From Teretinema zuelzerae (lineage in GTDB: Bacteria > Spirochaetota > Spirochaetia > Treponematales > Treponemataceae): DNA of 64,000 nucleotides. Shown here piece after piece: positions 19,970-50,030 of the stretch. The stretch spans positions 186,001 through 250,000 of the forward strand of contig NZ_JAINWA010000001.1 in the NCBI RefSeq assembly GCF_021021555.1, given 5' to 3'. The translations under genes and the position numbers were made by a program. Within the stretch, counting starts at the first letter, position 1. Every line of letters starts with the position of its first letter. The notes below the pieces were generated by a model. It did no database searches and had not been told where the DNA came from. It saw only the letters and a program-made list of their open reading frames with translations.

Positions 19970-20083
19970 GCCTGGCAGCTACCTACTTTCCCACTTTGCA
20001 AGCAGTATCATCGGCGTTAGAGAGCTTGACTTCCGTGTTCGGGATGGGAACGGGTATTGCCTCTCCACTATGGCCACCAGGCA
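19970..20083 (-). rRNA. rrf: 5S ribosomal RNA, rrn1
   Basis: About 114 bases. The ends GCCTGGTGGC and GCTGCCAGGC pair as the 5S terminal helix, and the internal CCCATCCCGAACACGG block is a 5S landmark. A T6 run follows directly on the minus strand. Ends are approximate. Confidence 0.93.
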
Positions 20084-20290
20084 TTATTAACTAATGTCAT
20101 GTGCGTCCGCTCATGTTTTCTTTCCGCCTGCCCTCTTCGAAAGACGTCTTTCATCAATTACGCCTTTTATAACAGGCTGTAGACTCTTTCGTAAGATCCA
20201 TTTCCAACCGGTTTCGAGCGAACGGCAAACCGATTGATAGTACGCATGGCGCATAGGGTGTTTAGAAACGAGAAACGTATTTTAGAAGTA

Positions 20291-20302
<12 letters not shown>
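20084..20302 (-). other. 23S-5S spacer, rrn1
   Basis: About 219 bases with no gene. It contains a perfect 14-base palindrome (20139-20152, GAAAGACGTCTTTC) and one arm of the 23S processing stem at its 23S end. The same spacer follows the other two 23S genes. Confidence 0.7.
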
Positions 20303-23277
<2,975 letters not shown>

Positions 23278-23548
23278 CTTCTTTTCGATCCCTCTTCGTT
23301 TTCACGCGCCTTCTTCGCTCGCATCTCTTCTTTTCCACCCGTGTTACGGCTTTCTAAAAAGTTCCGCTTCGCTTGCAAAACGCGCTTTTAAGAGATTCAA
23401 AAAGAAACCTTCGTTTCTTAACTTCATCGCATTTCTGCGATGCTTCTCGTTTCCTTCCCTATGTTGTATGTCAAATATCGCTTGTAACTGATTAAAACAA
23501 TCGAATTACAAAAACTCTTTCCAAAAAAAGCACTAATCAAAATGCTTA

Positions 23549-23622
23549 TGGAGATAAGGGGATTCGAACCCCTGACCTACGGCTTGCAAAGCCGCCGCTC
23601 TAGCCAGCTGAGCTATATCCCC
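23549..23622 (-). tRNA. tRNA-Ala (anticodon TGC), rrn1 spacer
   Basis: A 74-base cloverleaf beginning GGGGATATAGCTCAG and ending TTATCTCCA; the acceptor arms pair and the TTCGAAT T-loop is present. The anticodon loop TTTGCAA gives TGC. CCA is not encoded. It lies in a 140-base block (23486-23625) unique to this copy. Confidence 0.95.
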
Positions 23623-23842
23623 AATAAAAAGGTAAAGGGAAAGAAGGATTTTCAAGATTCGTTTTGATTCGATTCGAATGTGCCCTGTTGTACACGCGCA
23701 TTGCAGCGCCAGGGACTTTTTTTCGTAACAATCGGTTATCGCTAACCGTTTGTCGAAACTCACTGCCGTTAGACAGAAAGCTTCTATTGAAACGCTCGCT
23801 CTTTGCCCATGGATGTTTTCGGTCGAAGACCGGAAACTCCAG

Positions 23843-23867
23843 GGCGAAATGCGAAGCATTTCGCCTT
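23843..23867 (-). promoter_or_regulatory. stem-loop just after 16S, rrn1
   Basis: A 10-bp stem (GGCGAAATGC with its complement) and a 3-base loop lie a few bases beyond the 16S 3' end, in all three operons. It is probably part of spacer RNA processing. Confidence 0.5.
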
Positions 23868-23873
23868 TCTCTC

Positions 23874-25418
<1,545 letters not shown>

Positions 25419-25765
25419 ATATTCTCTAAATCCCTTGCGGGATCAAGATATCATTTTCAAGTCCTCTCCCTTTAATCTATTTAAAGGAATTGCTTTCTTC
25501 TCTTTTTCGCCCTTTGCAGAGCTACTCTTGTTCAGAAAGCGTCAAGACCGCTTCTTCGTTTCCGATTTCAGCAATCTATCGAGGTTTGTTATTCTCTTCT
25601 CTTTTTCGCGAACCTCACCGTTTGGTTGTCTGCACACTATCAAAAGAATGCTCTGTTACAAGCGTTCTTTTCTTCGTATACTGACGCTTCAAACAGCGTC
25701 CTTCTTTCCCTTCCCTTTATTTTCAAAGACCATTTTCGCTGCCATCCCCTGTTCGGGCTTAGCGG
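25419..25765 (-). other. rRNA leader, rrn1
   Basis: About 350 bases between promoter and 16S, shared almost exactly by all three operons. It holds the boxA antiterminator element and a small hairpin (25682-25699, arms GACGCT/AGCGTC). No protein gene is supported. Confidence 0.75.
25720..25732 (-). promoter_or_regulatory. boxA-like antitermination element, rrn1 leader
   Basis: Minus strand TGGTCTTTGAAAA closely matches the rRNA boxA consensus (TGnTCTTTGAAAA in Gram-positive leaders). It lies about 40 bases after the predicted start, where the NusB/NusE complex would load. Confidence 0.65.
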
Positions 25766-25778
25766 CGAGTGAATCGAC

Positions 25779-25806
25779 TGTATCACAGCTTCACGCTTTC
25801 AGTCAA
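25779..25806 (-). promoter_or_regulatory. candidate rrn1 promoter
   Basis: Minus strand TTGACT (25806-25801), a 16-base spacer and GATACA (25784-25779). Predicted transcription starts almost exactly where sequence shared with rrn3 begins. The -10 is imperfect. Confidence 0.5.
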
Positions 25807-26035
25807 TCCCTTTCACCTTGATTCCCGTACGATTATTTTTCAAATCGCCGGAGCATCGATAGACGATACGGATAACAATCTAGTCGTGAAGCTTTTCTGT
25901 TCATAAGAGTACATCGCTTTCATCTGTTACGAAAAAAAGAGTTCTTCTTATGAAGAGTACCAACACAGAACGATCAGTTATTCGACCCTGTTTTCTCATG
26001 CCTTAAAAAACTGAGACATGAAAACATTCAAGATC

Positions 26036-26089
26036 TTTTATGGAAGATACTTTTCAGGCCGTCTTACGGCTCAAATATCTTCCATAAAA
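26036..26089 (-). promoter_or_regulatory. stem-loop after rrn2 5S
   Basis: A perfect 14-bp inverted repeat (26036-26049 with 26076-26089, arm TTTTATGGAAGATA) encloses a second 5-bp hairpin (GCCGT/ACGGC). It stands 2 bases beyond the 5S. It may be a processing site or a weak terminator; the usual trailing T-run is missing. Confidence 0.55.
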
Positions 26090-26091
26090 AA

Positions 26092-26205
26092 GCCTGGCAG
26101 CTACCTACTTTCCCACTTTGCAAGCAGTATCATCGGCGTTAGAGAGCTTGACTTCCGTGTTCGGGATGGGAACGGGTATTGCCTCTCCACTATGGCCACC
26201 AGGCA
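26092..26205 (-). rRNA. rrf: 5S ribosomal RNA, rrn2
   Basis: Matches the rrn1 5S over its whole length, with the same terminal helix. Confidence 0.93.
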
Positions 26206-26424
26206 TTATTAACTAATGTCATGTGCGTCCGCTCATGTTTTCTTTCCGCCTGCCCTCTTCGAAAGACGTCTTTCATCAATTACGCCTTTTATAAAAGGCT
26301 GTAGACTCTTTCGTAAGATCCATTTCCAACCGGTTTCGAGCGAACGGCAAACCGATTGATAGTACGCATGGCGCATAGGGTGTTTAGAAACGAGAAACGT
26401 ATTTTTGAAGTAAAACGATAATAT

Positions 26425-29387
<2,963 letters not shown>

Positions 29388-29705
29388 ATATTATCGTTTC
29401 TTCTTTTCGATCCCTCTTCGTTTTCACGCGCCTTCTTCGCTCGCATCTCTTCTTTTCCACCCGTGTTACGGCTTTCTAAAAAGATCCGCTTCGCTTGCAA
29501 AACGCGCTTTTAAGAGATTCAAAAAGAAACCTTCGTTTCTTAACTTCATCGCATTTCTGCGATGCTTCTCGTTTCCTTCCCTATGTTGTATGTCAAATAT
29601 CACTTGTTTCGCCAGCATCTTGATTAGCCGCCCGCAGGCAACACGCTTTCAAAACCGGCTTCTTTCTTTTCCGAACCTGTATTTCACTCGTCCGGGTCAG
29701 ATCAA
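29388..29705 (-). other. tRNA-Ile to 23S spacer, rrn2
   Basis: About 318 bases without a gene. The part next to 23S matches rrn1; from 29608 onward the sequence differs from rrn1 and matches rrn3. Confidence 0.7.
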
Positions 29706-29779
29706 TGGGCCTGATTAGAGTTGAACTAATGACCCCTTCCTTATCAGAGAAGTGCTCTAACCGACTGAGCTACAGGCCC
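29706..29779 (-). tRNA. tRNA-Ile (anticodon GAT), rrn2 spacer
   Basis: A 74-base cloverleaf beginning GGGCCTGTAGCTCAG and ending ATCAGGCCCA. The anticodon loop CTGATAA gives GAT. CCA is not encoded. The T-loop is TTCAACT. Confidence 0.95.
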
Positions 29780-30131
29780 GTCAGAAACAGAAGTCTTAAA
29801 CCCCTCTTTTCTTTCGCTTCGCTCCCCGTTCGTACCGGAGACGCCTGCGAAATATGGAGGAAAAAACTCGTCTTTCTGTATAAAAAAAGGTAAAGGGAAA
29901 GAAGGATTTTCAAGATTCGTTTTGATTCGATTCGAATGTGCCCTGTTGTACACGCGCATTGCAGCGCCAGGGACTTTTTTTTCGTAACAATCGGTTATCG
30001 CTAACCGTTTGTCGAAGCTTCTGCCGTTAGGCAGAAAGCTTCTATTAAAACGCTTGCTCTTTGCCCATGGATGTTTTCGGTCGAAGACCGGAAACTCCAG
30101 GGCGAAATGCGAAGCATTTCGCCTTTCTCTC
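29780..30131 (-). other. 16S to tRNA-Ile spacer, rrn2
   Basis: About 352 bases with no protein gene. The part next to 16S carries the same post-16S hairpin as rrn1 and a second inverted repeat (around 30017-30041, CTGCCGTTAGGCAG core) that is eroded in rrn1. Confidence 0.65.
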
Positions 30132-31675
<1,544 letters not shown>

Positions 31676-32022
31676 ATATTCTCTAAATCCCTTGCGGGAT
31701 CAAGATATCATTTTCAAGTCCTCTCCCTTTAATCTATTTAAAGGAATTGCTTTCTTCTTTTTTTCACCCTTTGCAGAGCTACTCTTGTTCAGAAAGCGTC
31801 AAGACCGCTTCTTCGTTTCCGATTTCAGCAATCTATCGAGGTTTGTTATTCTCTTCTCTTTTTCGCGAACCTCACCGTTTGGTTGTCTGCACACTATCAA
31901 AAGAATGCTCTGTTACAAGCGTTCTTCTCTTCGTATACTGACGCTTCAAACAGCGTCCTTCTTTCCCTTCCCTTTATTTTCAAAGACCATTTTCGCTGCC
32001 ATCCCCTGTTCGGGTTTAGCGG
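31676..32022 (-). other. rRNA leader, rrn2
   Basis: Shared leader sequence between promoter and 16S, with the boxA element at 31977-31989. No gene. Confidence 0.75.
31977..31989 (-). promoter_or_regulatory. boxA-like element, rrn2 leader
   Basis: Identical TGGTCTTTGAAAA as in rrn1. Confidence 0.65.
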
Positions 32023-32035
32023 CGAGTGAATCGAC

Positions 32036-32063
32036 TGTATCACAGCTTCACGCTTTCAGTCAA
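32036..32063 (-). promoter_or_regulatory. candidate rrn2 promoter
   Basis: The same TTGACT-N16-GATACA arrangement as rrn1, in the spacer after the rrn3 5S. Confidence 0.5.
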
Positions 32064-32292
32064 TCCCTTTCATCTTGATTCCCGTACGATTATTTTTCAA
32101 ATCGCTGGAGCATCGATAGACGATACGGATAACAATCTAGTCGTGATGCTTTTCTGTTCATAAGAGCACATCGCTTTCATCTGTTACGAAAAAAAGAGTT
32201 CTTCTTATGAAGAGTACCAACACAGAACGATCAGTTATTCGACCCTGTTTTCTCATGCCTTAAAAAACTGAGACATGAAAACATTCAAGATC

Positions 32293-32346
32293 TTTTATGG
32301 AAGATACTTTTCAGGCCGTCTTACGGCTCAAATATCTTCCATAAAA
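32293..32346 (-). promoter_or_regulatory. stem-loop after rrn3 5S
   Basis: Identical to the 14-bp stem-loop after the rrn2 5S. It does not follow the rrn1 5S. Confidence 0.55.
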
Positions 32347-32348
32347 AA

Positions 32349-32462
32349 GCCTGGCAGCTACCTACTTTCCCACTTTGCAAGCAGTATCATCGGCGTTAGA
32401 GAGCTTGACTTCCGTGTTCGGGATGGGAACGGGTATTGCCTCTCCACTATGGCCACCAGGCA
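32349..32462 (-). rRNA. rrf: 5S ribosomal RNA, rrn3
   Basis: Matches the rrn1 and rrn2 5S genes. Confidence 0.93.
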
Positions 32463-32681
32463 TTATTAACTAATGTCATGTGCGTCCGCTCATGTTTTCT
32501 TTCCGCCTGCCCTCTTCGAAAGACGTCTTTCATCAATTACGCCTTTTATAACAGGCTGTAGACTCTTTCGTAAGATCCATTTCCAACCGGTTTCGAGCGA
32601 ACGGCAAACCGATTGATAGTACGCATGGCGCATAGGGTGTTTAGAAACGAGAAACGTATTTTAGAAGTAAAACGATAATAT

Positions 32682-35644
<2,963 letters not shown>

Positions 35645-35962
35645 ATATTATCGTTTCTTCTTTTCGATCCCTCTTCGTTTTCACACGCCTTCTTCGCTCG
35701 CCTCTCTTCTTTTCCACCCGTGTTACGGCTTTCTAAAAAGATCCGCTTCGCTTGCAAAACGCGCTTTTAAGAGATTCAAAAAGAAACCTTCGTTTCTTAA
35801 CTTCATCGCATTTCTGCGATGCTTCTCGTTTCCTTCCCTATGTTGTATGTCAAATATCACTTGTTTCGCCAGCATCTTGATTAGCCGCCCGCAGGCAACA
35901 CGCTTTCAAAACCGGCTTCTTTCTTTTCCGAACCTGTATTTCACTCGTCCGGGTCAGATCAA
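35645..35962 (-). other. tRNA-Ile to 23S spacer, rrn3
   Basis: About 318 bases, matching the rrn2 spacer; no gene seen. Confidence 0.7.
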
Positions 35963-36036
35963 TGGGCCTGATTAGAGTTGAACTAATGACCCCTTCCTTA
36001 TCAGAGAAGTGCTCTAACCGACTGAGCTACAGGCCC
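35963..36036 (-). tRNA. tRNA-Ile (anticodon GAT), rrn3 spacer
   Basis: Identical to the rrn2 tRNA-Ile. Confidence 0.95.
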
Positions 36037-36388
36037 GTCAGAAACAGAAGTCTTAAACCCCTCTTTTCTTTCGCTTCGCTCCCCGTTCGTACCGGAGACG
36101 CCTGCGAAATATGGAGGAAAAAACTCGTCTTTCTGTATAAAAAAAGGTAAAGGGAAAGAAGGATTTTCAAGATTCGTTTTGATTCGATTCGAATGTGCCC
36201 TGTTGTACACGCGCATTGCAGCGCCAGGGACTTTTTTTTCGTAACAATCGGTTATCGCTAACCGTTTGTCGAAGCTTCTGCCGTTAGGCAGAAAGCTTCT
36301 ATTAAAACGCTTGCTCTTTGCCCATGGATGTTTTCGGTCGAAGACCGGAAACTCCAGGGCGAAATGCGAAGCATTTCGCCTTTCTCTC
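36037..36388 (-). other. 16S to tRNA-Ile spacer, rrn3
   Basis: About 352 bases matching rrn2, with the post-16S hairpin; no protein gene. Confidence 0.65.
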
Positions 36389-37933
<1,545 letters not shown>

Positions 37934-38771: not shown

Positions 38772-41700
38772 CTACTTCTTCTTGACGCCTAATATAGTAA
38801 GATCGTCGTATTGCGAATCCTCGCGAATATTCGTGTAGTACAAGTATTCGGGATACTCCGGATGATCCTTGCGGTTCCCGCAGAATGATCCGTACTGCCT
38901 GAAATGCCGATTCAGGAAGAGATCGACTTTCCGGTCGACCTGAACACGATCGAAATCTGTTGCCGAAGGATCCTTATACATGCGGAAAATCTTTTCAACG
39001 GAAACCAGCGCAAGGATCGCTTCCTCTACCGTGCCCTCGCATGAAGTAAAGTCGAACTCGAATATTTCCGAAGGATCGGGATTATGCCATTTATAGAGCG
39101 TGTACATTTTTCTTGAAAAAACCGCTTCGATAATTTCAGAGACGCGCTCCGGGCCGAGCTCTTCATTGTCCTGTCCGACCGAGTGAGACCCGTGAGGCGC
39201 ATCCTGTTCGAGTCCGGGTTCGGCGCAGGCATGAACCTTGAGATCGGAGGTTCGGAACAAACGCTTTGCTTCTTCGATGCCGTCAGTATAAAGAAAGAGA
39301 ATGTCTCCCGAATTCAATTTAATCGTTTCTACCTGGAAACCGCCTTTCATGTCCACCATGAACGAGGGAAACACGCCGGCGGCCGAGCTTTCATGCAGGG
39401 CGATCGTTTTCATTTTACGGCTGCGCGCTTCGTACACATGGACGAGGTTATCGCCCGCGTTGCAAAAATGCACATTGCCGGATTTAGAATCCAGGATGCA
39501 CAGGGTGAACGCGGCGAACCGGCCCTTGAAGCCGCGCGATTCTATGAGATCGTTGATCCGGGAAACCATCGGCGACAGCTTATATCCGTTCTTTTCATAT
39601 TTCCAATCGGTAAAATAGTCGAGAAAGAGGGTGGCGACTTCGACCATGATGAGGGCGGCGGGAACGCCCTTACCGGCGACGTCGCACTTGATGATCGCAT
39701 AGTGGCGGTCGTCGAGCTTGATGTAATCGAAATAGTCGCCGGAAACGCCCTTTGCACCTTCGTAGTAGCCGAAAAAGTCGGCTAACGGCTCGTCGGAACG
39801 CCCGCAGGTAAGCTTTCGGCCATTGCTGTCGGTCTCTAGCGGAATGAACATTTTCTGAACTTCCTTACCGACCGTCAAATCCTTCGAAGCGGCGGCGGCC
39901 TTCACCAACCCATGAGTCATTTCATTGATGGTGTCTCCGAGAAGGCCGATTTCATCGCGCGAGCGCAAATGAATATTCTTTCCCTCGAGCGTTTCCTTAT
40001 CCTCGGTATCGCGGATCATGGCGACATGGGAGGCAAGGCGGCGAACGGGAGAAATGATGATGGAAGCGAGCAACAGGGACCCGATGACTCCGATGAGAAC
40101 CGCGAACAATGCGACGTATACGGTCGTGCGAACCAGAGCCTGCCGGTCCTGCAATACGGTTTCCAAAAGGCTTTCAGTCGATACGTCGACGCGGACGATT
40201 CCGTGCACGAATGAGTCGGAACCGCCCTGGCGATACATGACGGGCTTGAAAAAACTATAAAGCGTAACATCGCGCGACAGCTGCGAAGGGTCGTACGGCG
40301 GCCATGATCCCGTGCCGGCGGCCGCGATGCGGGAAAGCTCGGTAGTGAGCTTTTCTTCCAGCTGCCGGGTGATCGTCTGAATTTCCGAACGGCGTTCCGC
40401 CGAGGCTGCGTCGGTATTGAGCGCGAGCCTGACGCCTTCCTGGGACAAGGCGCTGATTCCTTCCGCGAGTTCGCCGACAGCGCGGCGAGCTTCGTCCTCG
40501 AGCACCGAAACGCGCGAGGATATCTCGGAGGCGTCCGGATCGACGAGCATCGAGGCGCCGTAGGTCAATGCCGCGGAATCGATCTTCGAAGCGATGGCCG
40601 GATCGTTCGTAGCCCACACATAATCGATCCCGGTGCTCGATCCGTCGCTTTTCCGGCCGGTTATCGTAGAGTGGAGAGCCTCTTCGAGGGCGGACACCTG
40701 TGACGGAAGGAAGCCGAGCTCAAGCAGGTTCTGGCTGGGCAAGTACGCCCGTGCCCCGGAAGCGAGGCTTTCCAGCAATACATTAACCCGCTCCTGCAGC
40801 CCCAGAGCGAGCGTCTTTTCCTGATTTTCCGAAAACTGCAGGCCGAGGGGAATCGAAACGACGAGGACAACCGATATGACCAGACTCGTGGTGAAGAAAG
40901 CCAGCTTGAAACGCAGACTGACCCCTTTTTTCCTCAGAGCGACCGATCGTTTTTTCTTTTCCGAAGGCATAATGTCTCCTGTCAATAGAGCTCGTATTTC
41001 CTGTCGAACCAGCAGCGAATCGTGAGCGGTCCGGGATATTCCGTAAAAAGAGAATATGAATACAACCGCCGCGAAGAACAGCAGCGCGTAAAAAGACAAT
41101 CGTTCAGCTCCGGGGAAGGACCGGCCGGCAAGAGGAGCTTTGGTCCACGGCGGCGTAAATTCGTAATCGTAGGAGCCGAATTTGACCGTTCCGTATTCCG
41201 AAACGCTTAATAACGGTTTGCTCAAGTATAGTCCGCGCCGTGGATGGTCAAGAGCGATGCGATAGGAGCCTTCTTCCAGTTCGGACAGCACGATTCCTGA
41301 AACCAGGCGGTCGTTGACGACGGCGAATCTATTCGATCCTGGGGCAAGGGTGACATCCCAGGGAAGCATGCCGTCGCGGTCGAAATGAATCTGCTGAAGC
41401 TTTCCGCCTTCGGTAAAACCGCGGCCGATTATCGAAAGCGTTATGATGCCGGTTTCATCGACCTTCGAATCGATGTACGTGATATAGGTATACGGAATGT
41501 ACTTATTAAGAACGATATACTTGACGGCCGGAGCGCCGATGTTTCCCACGCTGTCGATGGCGGAAACTGATACTGCGTAGATGCCGTTGTCGCGGTTTGT
41601 AAAGGATACTGACCGGTCGGCCGTACGGACGGATGAGGCAGGACGCGGCGAAGGAAGGAAGCGGGAGGCGGCCTGCTGAAAGTCGAAGGAGACAGGCGAT

Positions 41701-43412
41701 GCTGATTGGGCCGACGCAGGAAAAGCGGCATCCGCGGACCATCGACGCTGCAAAACGGGAAGATATTCAAGAGGAGCGACATACTCAAGGCGCCACGAGT
41801 AGCCCTGGATGTCGTCGTCTTCGGCCGGATCCCATCGCACTTTAAAGGAGTTCGACGATACATAGCCTGAACCGTCGATATCGAACTCGGCAATCACGGG
41901 TGGAGCGGGAGGCGTCGTATCCCGAATGTATTCTACCCACGACGGCTGCGACCAGTTTCCCGCATAATCCATCGCACGGGCTCCGATGAACCATGAGCCG
42001 TCGGTCGGAGCTTCAACGGTTATCCGGGTGTCTTCGGGAAGACGGGACAGCATATTTGGAACGAAGCCGGGTGTATCGGAGGAATACGCCCAGTTAAAAC
42101 CGGCAATGCCAGAAGAATCTTCGGGAAGGTCGACGGTAACGGAAATTCGATCCCCCCGACCTTTGCGTTTATCGCGAAAACCGGCGGGTACAAGACGCGG
42201 AGGGCTGACTGTTTGATCGGGCGAGAGCCGATAGACGCGGGATCCGCCCCTCGCAACCGCCTGCTGCCAATATACTTCCAGCGCCCCTGAAACCGAGACG
42301 ACTCTGCCGAACACTGAATCCCGCGATTCCCTCGAAAGCTCGCGTTCGCTCCACAGATACCCGTCTTTCAGGGCCAAATAGACCCGGTTAGAACCTTTTC
42401 TGTTGTCGTACCACACGACGGCGGGAAGCCCCTGATATTCCGCGATCTGGGGATCGTAGCAATACCCGTCGGCGGATGATATGCGCTCTGCTTGATTCGC
42501 GAGCATTCCCCGGGAATCAAGCTCAGCATAAAAAATCGAATATCGCTGGGACGCGGTTCTGGCGCGTTCCCAGACAAGCGAAAGCTTTCCGCCGAAAGAC
42601 ATGACGGAAGGCCGCTGATTGTGAAAGTTTTCGAATCGGCCCGCTACAGCGTCCTGGGAGCCGGCCTCGCCGAAGTCGGTAAAGAGAACCGGCTCGCTCC
42701 AAGTCAGCCCCGCGTCGTCGGAATACGTTGAATACAATTGATAGGACGGACGCGCGCTTCCTTCGTAAAACGCCTGGAACACGACCACATCGCGGCCGGA
42801 AACTGCGGCGTGAACCGGCAAGAACGGGCGGCGCAATGCCGACGTAGCGGAGAAATCGGAAAAGGAGCTCCAGGACGAACCGTCGTCGGAACGGGAAACA
42901 ACCAGAGAGAAGTTCTCCTCCCCTCCCTTGCTCGCGAATATGAAGAATCCGCCGTCTGAACGTTCGAACAGATGGGGGGACAAAACCGATGACGAAGAAC
43001 CGTTCAAAACGGTCCGCTCGAAGTTCCTGCATCCGTCAGCCGAGGAGTACACGTAAATACGGTTTTCGCCCGCGGCCACCGGTATGAATACCCTGGATTC
43101 CGAAGCAAGGGCGAGAGAAGCGATGGAAGGCACTTCGCCCGCGTACGGGATAGGACCGGCAAACCGGCGATTCTCATGCCAGGAAACGCCGTCGAAGTAC
43201 CGTATGGAAAGCCATATCCGCCCGCCTTCCGCGGAAACGGAATCGAGTTCCTGCCATACGACGGCAGCCCGTCCGTCCAGAGAAGCCGCTATCGGGAATC
43301 GGCTGTCGCCTGAATACAGCGGCTCGGGCGATTCCCAATAAAAGTCCTGCGCGTACAGGGATGAAAAAAGAGAAAACAGCATAATACCGAGCAGAACGAT
43401 TTTTTTCATCAT
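38772..43412 (-). CDS. giant membrane receptor with SpoIIE-type PP2C phosphatase
   Basis: A 1546-residue signalling protein. A signal peptide (1-21) precedes a large periplasmic region of about 750 residues with sialidase/BNR-like repeats (SDDGSSWSS, YSDDAGLTWSEP) and Ig/FN3-like modules after DTTPPAPP. Transmembrane helices lie at about 772-793 and 836-856, then a second periplasmic sensor of about 240 residues, then a helix at about 1094-1118 and a HAMP domain. The C-terminus is a PP2C/SpoIIE phosphatase (VSGDYFDY, CDVAGKGVPAAL, LYTDGIEEA), whose Asp residues hold the metals. RsbU/SpoIIE enzymes dephosphorylate anti-anti-sigma factors; no such partner is seen here. It shares 4 bases (ATGA) with the TPR gene upstream. 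Confidence 0.87.
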   Translation of the reverse strand: MMKKIVLLGIMLFSLFSSLYAQDFYWESPEPLYSGDSRFPIAASLDGRAAVVWQELDSVSAEGGRIWLSIRYFDGVSWHENRRFAGPIPYAGEVPSIASLALASESRVFIPVAAGENRIYVYSSADGCRNFERTVLNGSSSSVLSPHLFERSDGGFFIFASKGGEENFSLVVSRSDDGSSWSSFSDFSATSALRRPFLPVHAAVSGRDVVVFQAFYEGSARPSYQLYSTYSDDAGLTWSEPVLFTDFGEAGSQDAVAGRFENFHNQRPSVMSFGGKLSLVWERARTASQRYSIFYAELDSRGMLANQAERISSADGYCYDPQIAEYQGLPAVVWYDNRKGSNRVYLALKDGYLWSERELSRESRDSVFGRVVSVSGALEVYWQQAVARGGSRVYRLSPDQTVSPPRLVPAGFRDKRKGRGDRISVTVDLPEDSSGIAGFNWAYSSDTPGFVPNMLSRLPEDTRITVEAPTDGSWFIGARAMDYAGNWSQPSWVEYIRDTTPPAPPVIAEFDIDGSGYVSSNSFKVRWDPAEDDDIQGYSWRLEYVAPLEYLPVLQRRWSADAAFPASAQSASPVSFDFQQAASRFLPSPRPASSVRTADRSVSFTNRDNGIYAVSVSAIDSVGNIGAPAVKYIVLNKYIPYTYITYIDSKVDETGIITLSIIGRGFTEGGKLQQIHFDRDGMLPWDVTLAPGSNRFAVVNDRLVSGIVLSELEEGSYRIALDHPRRGLYLSKPLLSVSEYGTVKFGSYDYEFTPPWTKAPLAGRSFPGAERLSFYALLFFAAVVFIFSFYGISRTAHDSLLVRQEIRALLTGDIMPSEKKKRSVALRKKGVSLRFKLAFFTTSLVISVVLVVSIPLGLQFSENQEKTLALGLQERVNVLLESLASGARAYLPSQNLLELGFLPSQVSALEEALHSTITGRKSDGSSTGIDYVWATNDPAIASKIDSAALTYGASMLVDPDASEISSRVSVLEDEARRAVGELAEGISALSQEGVRLALNTDAASAERRSEIQTITRQLEEKLTTELSRIAAAGTGSWPPYDPSQLSRDVTLYSFFKPVMYRQGGSDSFVHGIVRVDVSTESLLETVLQDRQALVRTTVYVALFAVLIGVIGSLLLASIIISPVRRLASHVAMIRDTEDKETLEGKNIHLRSRDEIGLLGDTINEMTHGLVKAAAASKDLTVGKEVQKMFIPLETDSNGRKLTCGRSDEPLADFFGYYEGAKGVSGDYFDYIKLDDRHYAIIKCDVAGKGVPAALIMVEVATLFLDYFTDWKYEKNGYKLSPMVSRINDLIESRGFKGRFAAFTLCILDSKSGNVHFCNAGDNLVHVYEARSRKMKTIALHESSAAGVFPSFMVDMKGGFQVETIKLNSGDILFLYTDGIEEAKRLFRTSDLKVHACAEPGLEQDAPHGSHSVGQDNEELGPERVSEIIEAVFSRKMYTLYKWHNPDPSEIFEFDFTSCEGTVEEAILALVSVEKIFRMYKDPSATDFDRVQVDRKVDLFLNRHFRQYGSFCGNRKDHPEYPEYLYYTNIREDSQYDDLTILGVKKK

Positions 43413-46417: not shown

Positions 46418-46485
46418 CTAAACCGGGTGTATGGAGTTAAAAAGAGCAGAATAATAACCGAAAATACAATATACTCGGAGTGGGA

Positions 46486-47751
46486 ATGCAAAAGACCAGT
46501 CGTTTTCTGATCATCATCTTCTCGACGCTCATGGCCTCTTCGGCTCAGGCTTTGGATTTATCCGATCCATACAGCTACCTGTCAGGAATCCTCGCCCCGC
46601 TCGTGGACGAAAACGAAGGCGAAACAACCTTTCGATCCCTGCTGATACCCGGGGGCGGCCGCTCTGAAGCCATGGGGTCAGCCTTTTCCGCATTGGCCAA
46701 CGACATCAGCTTTTTTGAAACCAATCCCGCCGGCAGCTCGACCATGCCGAACACGGAACTCGCCGTATTCCATAATAACTGGATCGCAGACTCTCGCCTT
46801 GAAACCCTTTCATGGACGCAGCGAGCCGACGACCTGGGGTACGGCGTTTCCCTCCGATGCTTTTATGTGCCGTTCACTGAATATAACACCTATGGAGAGA
46901 GAGTTTCACGGGGATACTATACGGAAACGCTCGGAATCCTCAATTTTTCCTATAACTTCCTTTCCGGCTATTATTTCAAGGGAATCGCAGTCGGAACTAA
47001 TATCAAAGCGGGATTCAGGAGCATGCCGGACTTTTCTAATAACACCGCGGGCGCGGTCGAAGGTTCGGGATTCAGCCAATCCGCGTTGACAGTCATGGGC
47101 GATTTCGGTTTCCAGACGCGATTCAACCTGATCAAACTGTACAGTTCCCGGGATCCCAACTTCTTCATCGGGGCGACGGCTCGAAACATCGGACCGGCCG
47201 TCCAGGGAGATCCCCTTCCGAGCGTTCTAACCGGAGGGGCTGCATGGAAACCGGCGAATCCGATCACCGTGTCTGCGGAAATTCAACAGCCGGTCAATCT
47301 GGTTAATCCGGAAAACTCGGGTCTTATGGCCGCCGGAGCCGGCGTTATGGTGGAATTCGCCGAGTTTTTCACCTTTCTCGGAGGCTTTCAGCTCAAGGGC
47401 GGCAATCCCCGGGCAAGCATCGGCGGAGAAATAAACGTAAACGACTTTCAATTCAATATTAACTACACCCTTGATATGACCACTCAGGCGGCTTTATTCA
47501 ATCGAATCAGCCTTGCGGCCAAGTTGAATCTGGGAGACAGGGGAAGAGCGGCGCGAAGAATTCGCATCGAAAAGCTGTATATCCAGGGACTTAAGCTGTA
47601 TGCGAGCGGAGATTTGAATCAGGCGATAGAGATTTGGGCCGATGTGCTGGAAATCGACAGGCGATTCGATCCGGCAAAGGAAGGAATCGCCACCGCTACG
47701 CAGGCTCTGGAAATTCAAGCCCGCATTCAGGAACTTCAACAACTGGAATAA
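46486..47751 (+). CDS. UPF0164-family outer-membrane porin-like protein
   Basis: A 421-residue protein of the treponemal UPF0164 group (TP0859-like, FadL/PorV-type barrels). The ATG at 46486 is chosen because GGAG lies 5 bases upstream; the GTG at 46480 is less likely. The signal peptide ends near AQALDL. The landmark GGGRSEAMGSAFSALANDISF and the following NPAGSS are typical of the family's barrel start, and many alternating strands follow. The last 70 residues, after KLNLGDRGRAARRIR, form a TPR-like helical tail (KLYASGDLNQAIEIWADVLEIDRRFDP, split by a turn), probably periplasmic. It likely imports hydrophobic nutrients or assembles with the divergent TPR protein. Confidence 0.8.
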   Translation: MQKTSRFLIIIFSTLMASSAQALDLSDPYSYLSGILAPLVDENEGETTFRSLLIPGGGRSEAMGSAFSALANDISFFETNPAGSSTMPNTELAVFHNNWIADSRLETLSWTQRADDLGYGVSLRCFYVPFTEYNTYGERVSRGYYTETLGILNFSYNFLSGYYFKGIAVGTNIKAGFRSMPDFSNNTAGAVEGSGFSQSALTVMGDFGFQTRFNLIKLYSSRDPNFFIGATARNIGPAVQGDPLPSVLTGGAAWKPANPITVSAEIQQPVNLVNPENSGLMAAGAGVMVEFAEFFTFLGGFQLKGGNPRASIGGEINVNDFQFNINYTLDMTTQAALFNRISLAAKLNLGDRGRAARRIRIEKLYIQGLKLYASGDLNQAIEIWADVLEIDRRFDPAKEGIATATQALEIQARIQELQQLE

Positions 47752-47764
47752 ATCGAAGACGGAA

Positions 47765-49354
47765 TCACTTGCGGCGGCTGAATACCCGATAGTTCATGGA
47801 ATGAAAAAGATTATGCTTTTTTTCCGTGTTCGTGAGCCATTCAGTGCTGATGAAATTCGATCCAAGGGGTTCGTATACGACGGTGAAGGCGCGGACGCTT
47901 TCTTCGAAACGGCTGCGCGCGTAGTCGCTTTTCGCGCTGTCGTTCATGAGCATATACCAATCCATCGTTTGCGCCAGAAGCAGTTCGCGCGCCGCCATAT
48001 TCAACGCACGTTCCTTCAGCCCCGTATCGTCGGGGAAGCGCTCGGCGAGATCTATCATCCGTCGCGTGGCCTTCTGGATATACGGATACATCCAGTCGTT
48101 CGTGCTGTTAAGGACTTCCTCGGCGTATCCGCTCGGAAACCAGGACGACGGATACGGATCTATCTTCTTTTCGCTGACCCGCGAACGGATCACCGATGAA
48201 GGCAGGGCGAAAGACACATCCTGGCGCGCGGCTGCAGCCCTGAAGAGCTGTTCCAGCCAGGAAACGCCCTCGTACCATTCGCTGCCGAACATCTCGGACG
48301 GAAGCGCGCACACGAGGGAAACAGGGGCGCCTTCGAGAAAGGAAGAAGCCTTCGCGAGGGCTTCCGCCCTTCTATCGAGAAAGGCGGAAGCGTCCAGACA
48401 TACCTGTTCGTGGGCTTTACTGATCTGGTACCACTTGGAAGAGGAAGAGTCTCGGGAACGAGGCCAGTATCTGAAACCGGTAATCCGCCGGCCGAGCTGT
48501 ACATCGAACAAGGGAGACAGAGTTTCTTCTGACAGTTCGAAGCCGATATCCCTGTCCACGTCGAGATACACAGAATTCGCGGAAAAGGAATTCTCTTCTC
48601 CGGCGATTTCCTGACAGGCGCTCTTGTCACGCCCTAAAACGGCAAAATTATTCCTGCACCAGGCCGGAGAAAAAAGACCGAGGTCAGCCTGAGGCGCGGA
48701 AAACATCAGTCCGTGGGATTCCAGCAGCGTGTATTGGAATCCGTAGGACTTGAGCACTTCTTCGATTCCGCTCGAATACCCCATGGCGGGAAGCCAGAAG
48801 CCCGTCGGAACAGCCGTAAAGTGCTCCCTGAAGGAAAGCAGACCCGTTTCGATCTGCGCGTTTATCGCTTCGGGAATATCGTTGTAGAAAGGAAGATAGC
48901 ACGAGGTCGCGGTGGTCGCTAACAGCTCGATATATCCGCGATTCGCGAAATAATCGAATTTTTTCAGAACATTCTTTTCATATATCTCGACGAAGTCGCG
49001 GCGGTTCAGCTGGGCAAGATCAAGCTGAAGCTTGATCATCTCGCGGGCTTCCGGCATATCCGCGCAGCGGTCCAGCTCGCTCAGCCCGAAACCGATAGTC
49101 CGGTCGAGGGTGTCTATATAGCGTTCCTGAAGAAGAGGATCGGAGAGCATTTCGCAGAGAGTAGGCGAAAAAGCGATTCCCAGCTTGAAGGGCACGCCCT
49201 CGGTCTCCAAGGAGGTGCAGCTTCGGAGCAAGGGAAGCCAGGTATACGAAAGAGATGTGAACAGAGCGGTCTCCTCCACGCAGCCGGGAACATCCGGATG
49301 GCGAACGAAGGGGAGATGCGCATCAAGCACGAAGACAAGGTTCGAATCAGACAT
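47765..49354 (-). CDS. GH57-fold protein with catalytic residues replaced
   Basis: A 529-residue protein that aligns by eye with GH57/DUF1957 1,4-alpha-glucan branching enzymes: FVLDAHLPFVRHP at the N-terminus, GVPFKLGIAFSPTLCEML at 53-70, GFWLPAMGY at 185-193 and LPSEMFGSEWYEG at 351-363. In active enzymes (for example Thermococcus kodakarensis, Glu183 and Asp354) these motifs read WLPEC and FDTELFGHWW. Here the nucleophile is Ala190 and the acid/base Asp is Pro352; the conserved His of the second motif is also missing. It should be catalytically dead but could bind glycans. There is no signal peptide. It is the last gene after the pseudouridine synthase and the DUF4912 protein, 13 bases after the latter. 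Confidence 0.8.
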   Translation of the reverse strand: MSDSNLVFVLDAHLPFVRHPDVPGCVEETALFTSLSYTWLPLLRSCTSLETEGVPFKLGIAFSPTLCEMLSDPLLQERYIDTLDRTIGFGLSELDRCADMPEAREMIKLQLDLAQLNRRDFVEIYEKNVLKKFDYFANRGYIELLATTATSCYLPFYNDIPEAINAQIETGLLSFREHFTAVPTGFWLPAMGYSSGIEEVLKSYGFQYTLLESHGLMFSAPQADLGLFSPAWCRNNFAVLGRDKSACQEIAGEENSFSANSVYLDVDRDIGFELSEETLSPLFDVQLGRRITGFRYWPRSRDSSSSKWYQISKAHEQVCLDASAFLDRRAEALAKASSFLEGAPVSLVCALPSEMFGSEWYEGVSWLEQLFRAAAARQDVSFALPSSVIRSRVSEKKIDPYPSSWFPSGYAEEVLNSTNDWMYPYIQKATRRMIDLAERFPDDTGLKERALNMAARELLLAQTMDWYMLMNDSAKSDYARSRFEESVRAFTVVYEPLGSNFISTEWLTNTEKKHNLFHSMNYRVFSRRK

Positions 49355-49367
49355 CTAATCGGTACCC

Positions 49368-50030
49368 TCACATAAATGATTGTCGATGATTGCGGAAATG
49401 AGATTTCCGTAATTCGGTAAAACCCGAGAGCTCAAGCAAGGGTGGAACCTTTCGCTTCTCCTCGTGGGGGGCTTCCGCGAAACCGCTGCAGGGAACGCAC
49501 AGTTCCTGGGACTTCGCGAGCAGTTGCTCTTTCTCCTGAGAATTTCTCGTATAGAGATCGACCCTGCACCATTGGGTGCCGACAGGCAGATGCGCGTACC
49601 ATTTTCGGTCTCGGATGCCCACGTCGATGTCGTAATAGTCAGCCGAAGCGCTGTCCTTTTGAGTTCCTTGAGAGTTGACCCGAAGGAAAAAGGATTCAAA
49701 CTTGTGATTTCCCGTCAGAGCGGAATACAAATTCGAGTGAAAATCCCAAAACACGAAAACCCAGCCCGGATCGCGCATCAGAACCGTAATCGCGGTCTCG
49801 TTATATGTTTCGGGAAGAACCTCCGGGGAGGCCGGAATATCAGTATCGACAAGGCTTGCAGTCTCGGCGGCGATCTTATTGTCCTCGGCCGCGATTTCCA
49901 GCACTTCGCCTATGATGAAACGCCTGTTTAGGCCTTCCGGAACATCGATTCCGTACTCTTCTGCGAGAGATACAAGGTCGGAAGTGGAAAGCGATTCTAG
50001 GTATGCTCTGCTCAGGGGTGTCTGTTCCAT
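49368..50030 (-). CDS. DUF4912-domain protein
   Basis: A 220-residue cytosolic protein. The N-terminal 50 residues (LSTSDLVSLAEEYGIDVPEG...IIGEVLE) resemble a SAP/HeH or Rho-N-like helical module. The DUF4912 domain spans about 70-175, with LPETYNETAITVLMRDPGWV, FVFWDF, YYDIDVGI and WYAHLPVGTQWCRVDLYTR as landmarks. The function of DUF4912 is not established; its beta-sandwich look and its presence next to glucan enzymes suggest carbohydrate or glycogen binding. It is followed after 13 bases by the degenerate GH57 gene, so the two probably work together. Confidence 0.8.
   Translation of the reverse strand: MEQTPLSRAYLESLSTSDLVSLAEEYGIDVPEGLNRRFIIGEVLEIAAEDNKIAAETASLVDTDIPASPEVLPETYNETAITVLMRDPGWVFVFWDFHSNLYSALTGNHKFESFFLRVNSQGTQKDSASADYYDIDVGIRDRKWYAHLPVGTQWCRVDLYTRNSQEKEQLLAKSQELCVPCSGFAEAPHEEKRKVPPLLELSGFTELRKSHFRNHRQSFM

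Follow-up and report, generated by a model that had tools for sequence, protein, structure and literature searches.

The DNA analysed here, a stretch of 64,000 nucleotides hereafter called the window, encodes a protein related to GH57 glycogen branching enzymes that lacks the residues on which catalysis by such enzymes depends, and directly upstream of it a protein with a domain of unknown function, DUF4912. The question raised by this locus is what a branching enzyme relative in such a state does, and what its partner has to do with it. Both genes lie on the minus strand in the order DUF4912, GH57; the coordinates of the pair and of the features discussed below are given in Table 1. A gene for an RluA-like pseudouridine synthase is located upstream of the pair and a UPF0164 gene on its other side. 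The latter (UPF0164/PorV-like, 46480-47751, plus strand) is convergent with the GH57 gene, and the same layout is found at 26 loci.

Table 1. Features of the GH57-DUF4912 locus, in window coordinates
Feature	Position	Strand	Basis or remark
GH57 branching-enzyme-like protein, putative pseudoenzyme, 529 aa	47765..49354	-	ORF; PF03065 and PF09210, 2b5d match, AF2/Foldseek
BE_C, C-terminal branching-enzyme helical domain, residues 426-525	47780..48079	-	PF09210
Pro352 codon, site of AmyC acid/base Asp349	48299..48301	-	alignment and sequence
Ala190 codon, site of AmyC nucleophile Glu185	48785..48787	-	alignment and sequence
Ser151 codon, site of motif-2 His146 of AmyC	48902..48904	-	alignment
Asp11 codon, site of AmyC His10 (acid/base polariser)	49322..49324	-	alignment; role of His10 from PMC6616209
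Gap between the DUF4912 and GH57 genes, 13 nt	49355..49367	-	
DUF4912 partner protein, 220 aa	49368..50030	-	PF16258, 1e-17; AF2 pLDDT 88.2
C-terminal tail of the partner (LLELSGFTELRKSHFRNHRQSFM)	49371..49445	-	near-invariant within the family and missing from the other lineages compared
DUF4912 domain (residues 76-184), modelled as a fibronectin-III-like beta sandwich	49479..49805	-	Pfam; Foldseek
Rho_N/SAP-like helical N-terminus of the partner (tentative), residues 11-36	49923..50000	-	Rho_N in Pfam at E=0.024, short of the cut-off

The GH57 protein matches Glyco_hydro_57 (PF03065, 8e-22) and BE_C (PF09210, 2e-31) and aligns over its full length (5e-77) with AmyC of Thermotoga maritima (TM1438, PDB 2b5d), a glycogen branching enzyme of GH57 whose hydrolytic activity is high (PMC6616209). 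Its AF2 model (mean pLDDT 93.2) shows the (beta/alpha)7 barrel and helical bundle of the fold family, and the best solved match to this model in Foldseek was again AmyC, with a TM of 0.92. An earlier sequence-only reading of this locus had stated that the GH57 layout is kept and had proposed a structure prediction as a check; profiles, full-length alignment and predicted fold all bear the statement out.

Within this preserved predicted fold the canonical residues are lost. The beta4 nucleophile Glu185 of AmyC is replaced by Ala190, the beta7 acid/base Asp349 by Pro352 and the second-motif His146 by Ser151, as the same reading had noted; Asp11 in place of His10 is a further loss, absent from its list. 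The Cys that follows the nucleophile in branching enzymes (Cys186 in AmyC; for this residue and the catalytic roles in AmyC see PMC6616209) is Met191 in the window protein, and most of the aromatic residues of the cleft are replaced as well. The scores of 188 and 175 bits against the NCBIfam equivalog models of branching enzymes miss the respective cut-offs of 920 and 1000. Judged by its sequence, the protein is very probably dead as a canonical branching enzyme.

A GH57 relative is present in 169 of the 296 surveyed genomes of the phylum. The nearest relative of the window protein (58% identical) carries Ala and Arg at the two catalytic sites. In the alignment of 48 members of the window's family, the catalytic Glu is kept in 12, the Asp in 15 and both in four, all four of which have lost His10; 24 different residue combinations occupy the two sites across the 48 genomes. 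Sequencing error, a local oddity and chance were ruled out, because at least one catalytic residue is missing in 44 of the 48 members, the nearest relative included. Both residues are kept in 20 of 20 outgroup spirochaetes, in 22 of 28 members of other families of the class, and in all 80 relatives recruited from across the bacteria with patterns that partly cover the catalytic motifs; none of the 14 functional positions examined varies in the latter set. Of six aromatic cleft positions, outgroup spirochaetes keep a mean of 6.0, the class 5.4, the rest of the order 4.4 and the window's family 0.85, and losses affected conserved cleft residues more frequently than conserved positions elsewhere (Fisher p=0.009). 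In a quick gene tree, calculated with the two catalytic columns left out, the window's family grouped as a single clade (support 99); under parsimony, which cannot separate gains from losses, no fewer than 21 changes are needed to explain the catalytic states. From these alignments, the GH57 protein of the family is predicted to have lost canonical catalysis together with most of the sugar-binding cleft.

The GH57 gene is under purifying selection. In the sampled genomes of the family its ORFs have their full length, and comparison of close relatives within the family gives a dN/dS of about 0.08-0.14; a decaying pseudogene was rejected on these two observations. Close pairs from other families gave values of 0.035-0.07, and one such pair itself lacks the nucleophile. 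At sixteen positions the family has become fixed to at least 92%, whereas intact enzymes vary or differ there; 11 of these positions lie in helices of the GH57 model. Such a pattern fits a constraint newly acting away from the catalytic site, and the positions may form an interface. No signal was seen when they were compared with loss of the DUF4912 tail, as the T. pallidum-like copy, in which the tail is degenerate, deviates at only 2 of the 16.

The partner scores 64.9 bits against DUF4912 (PF16258; gathering cut-off 29.4). In its AF2 model, a fibronectin-III-like sandwich lies between Rho_N/SAP-like helices at the N-terminus and further helices at the C-terminus. The sequence-only reading had described a DUF4912 protein with a SAP-like N-terminus; the first part stands, and the second can be held only tentatively, with Rho_N below the Pfam cut-off and E=0.0044 and 0.024 for the family profile against Rho structure chains. 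Foldseek related the DUF4912 model to FnIII domains (E-values of roughly 2e-4 to 1e-3; TM near 0.6 when normalised by target length). A known carbohydrate-binding module was considered for the domain and rejected, as none occurred among the 50 fold matches listed, the best of which were FnIII domains. The window partner is a member of DUF4912 with an extra conserved C-terminal tail (consensus near LSGxxxLxxxHYxNHRQSF, at the C-terminus), which is a feature of the window's family. No function for DUF4912 was found in the open-licence literature, where the name turned up in a single paper, on cotton transcripts.

The pairing of the two genes, noticed in the window from their spacing of 13 bases, is conserved in the class and beyond. 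A survey of other spirochetes, which the sequence-only reading had proposed, found DUF4912 directly upstream of GH57 on the same strand in the class Spirochaetia, with intergenic distances that mostly range from -17 to +80 nt at 83 spirochaete loci; in Leptospira-like genomes both genes are present and are not adjacent. Both genes occur in 151 of the 296 genomes, GH57 only in 18, DUF4912 only in 3 and neither in 124, counts that ignore phylogeny. Outside the spirochaetes, DUF4912 lies upstream of intact GH57 branching enzymes at 63 of 80 loci, and the 17 loci without it are mostly contig ends and cyanobacteria. The 80-locus set covers more than 15 phyla by the organism names on the records, including Thermotogota, Bacillota, Campylobacterota, Myxococcota, Planctomycetota, Verrucomicrobiota and Omnitrophota. 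In a Thermosipho relative that is 65% identical to AmyC, DUF4912 is likewise found directly upstream. No fused DUF4912-GH57 gene was found among the ORFs searched. A spirochaete-specific system is ruled out by this bacteria-wide occurrence; judged by gene order, the pair is an old module and not a new system. The earlier suggestion of an undescribed system is not supported, since DUF4912 directly precedes the gene of an intact GH57 enzyme in members of at least 15 phyla, and branching-enzyme-like GH57 proteins without catalytic residues were already reported in 2018 (PMC6037648).

The genome of the window (G000) contains glgA, glgC, glgX and two phosphorylase genes (glgP), and no GH13 GlgB-type branching enzyme was found in it (best score 77 bits, cut-off 741). 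Takeover by a GH13 branching enzyme was rejected there, as the strong candidate is the debranching enzyme GlgX; a second GH57 protein of this genome resembles 4-alpha-glucanotransferase. Nearly all members of the family have glgA, and most keep glgA, glgP and glgX without a recognisable GH13 branching enzyme. Two sets of genomes keep the pair under other circumstances. One genome (G056; a single contig of 1,139,633 bases), which we take to be T. pallidum, retains the pair and gave no match for glgA, glgB, glgC, glgP or glgX. Three further genomes (f9; L062, L063, L066) also keep the pair, with Glu and Asp of the GH57 protein intact, and lack glgA, glgP, glgX and a true glgC. Because the pair is kept in these genomes without glycogen genes, it likely has a role outside glycogen, and this role is probably older than the loss of catalysis. 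A glycogen-linked role is possible in the window's own genome and in most of its family.

TP_0358 of T. pallidum (TPANIC_0358/TPASS_0358), annotated as alpha-amylase or glycosyl hydrolase, is the ortholog of the window GH57 protein (42% identity) and is also paired with DUF4912. It has kept the nucleophile Glu, carries Pro at the acid/base position and has lost both histidines, and the tail of its partner is degenerate. TPANIC_0358 is listed among the most expressed genes of T. pallidum, with FPKM of 595 in vitro and 260 in rabbit (PMC8525777). No literature on the partner, TP0359, was found among open-licence papers.

On balance, we lean towards the GH57 protein acting as a partner of DUF4912 that does no catalysis, in a function that can be separated from glycogen. 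The ancestral state would have been an old bacterial module of a GH57 glycogen branching enzyme and a DUF4912 partner encoded just upstream. In the window's family, catalysis and most of the cleft would then have been lost, with fold and partner kept under selection, and the pseudoenzyme would sit in a complex with DUF4912 as a structural or regulatory subunit; the role of this complex would be separable from glycogen and would predate the catalytic loss. Both the physical contact of the two proteins and the kind of role they play are inferred; genes may stay neighbours even where their products do not touch. The regulatory complex envisaged from the sequence is possible. A glycogen-linked accessory, binding nascent alpha-glucan or glycogen synthase and shaping glycogen non-catalytically, comes close to the glucan sensor proposed in the sequence-only reading and is rather unlikely. 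The descent of the protein from a glycogen branching enzyme and the glycogen genes of the window's genome and of nearly all its family would fit such a function, but the aromatic positions of the cleft have mostly disappeared from the family (0.85 versus 6.0 in the outgroup), the pair persists where all five glycogen genes (G056) or nearly all of them (f9) are absent, and the best fold matches of the partner are FnIII domains, with no carbohydrate-binding module among the 50 listed.

Unorthodox or weak activity through other residues is possible, and the GH57 protein would then be the missing branching enzyme of glgA-bearing spirochaetes; that it is so seems unlikely. The window's genome indeed has glgA and glgX without a GH13 GlgB being found, and several acidic residues could take over: D269 and E362, which do not vary within the family, and E162, E169 and D321, which are newly fixed there. 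However, the former two are equally conserved in intact enzymes, the latter three sit in helices of the model, the many residue pairs at the catalytic sites suit a lost constraint better than a replacement mechanism, and G056 has no glycogen pathway at all. That the pair is a relic without present function, drifting to loss, is hardly credible: the catalytic positions vary freely and the conserved DUF4912 tail has been lost in the T. pallidum-like copy, but the selection estimates (dN/dS of about 0.1) largely refute this, and intact ORFs, newly fixed positions, retention of the pair in a 1.14-Mb reduced genome and the high transcript level of the GH57 gene in T. pallidum speak against it as well. 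A service of the pair in cell-envelope synthesis or division is improbable, more so than unorthodox activity, and its genomic context is a lead only. At 20 of 28 loci outside the order, in seven families of the class, mraZ and rsmH lie 3' of GH57 on the same strand, followed by murF and mraY where the stretch reaches, so that the pair heads a division/cell-wall cluster; in one genus of the window's family, GH57 is followed by an alanine racemase gene. The gap to mraZ (mostly 46-480 nt) may nevertheless hold a separate promoter, the linkage is absent from the window's own family and order, the copies adjoining mraZ mostly keep the catalytic residues, and inherited gene order alone could explain the arrangement. 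A more specific version for the Treponema family is also unlikely, in which the complex of the two proteins would be obligate, its function linked to the envelope or division and older than the catalytic loss, and the family-specific tail would dock on GH57, perhaps in the vacated cleft.

Branching-enzyme-like GH57 proteins without catalytic residues are as such already known. The branching-enzyme-like group described in 2018 (60 sequences; PMC6037648) has an architecture of about 520 aa and lacks one or both catalytic residues, with the window protein lacking both; in the main text of that report, treponemes and leptospires are not among the organisms named for this group, and DUF4912 does not occur. 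No link between DUF4912 and GH57 was found in open-licence papers. The pairing with DUF4912, the clade-wide scale of the loss and the retention without glycogen genes therefore look new. As a near-constant gene partner of bacterial GH57 branching enzymes, DUF4912 gains a first handle on its function. The label alpha-amylase or glycosyl hydrolase in T. pallidum and its relatives would be an annotation error, and in its place stands a testable question, namely why a branching enzyme that is disabled should be strongly expressed in a spirochaete in which no glycogen pathway was detected.

Elsewhere in the window, positions 19970-37933 (minus strand) hold three complete tandem rRNA operons (16S, tRNA, 23S, 5S), in coordinate order with tRNA-Ala in the first and tRNA-Ile in the second and third. 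Positions 38772-43412, also on the minus strand, encode a protein of 1546 aa with HAMP and SpoIIE phosphatase domains.
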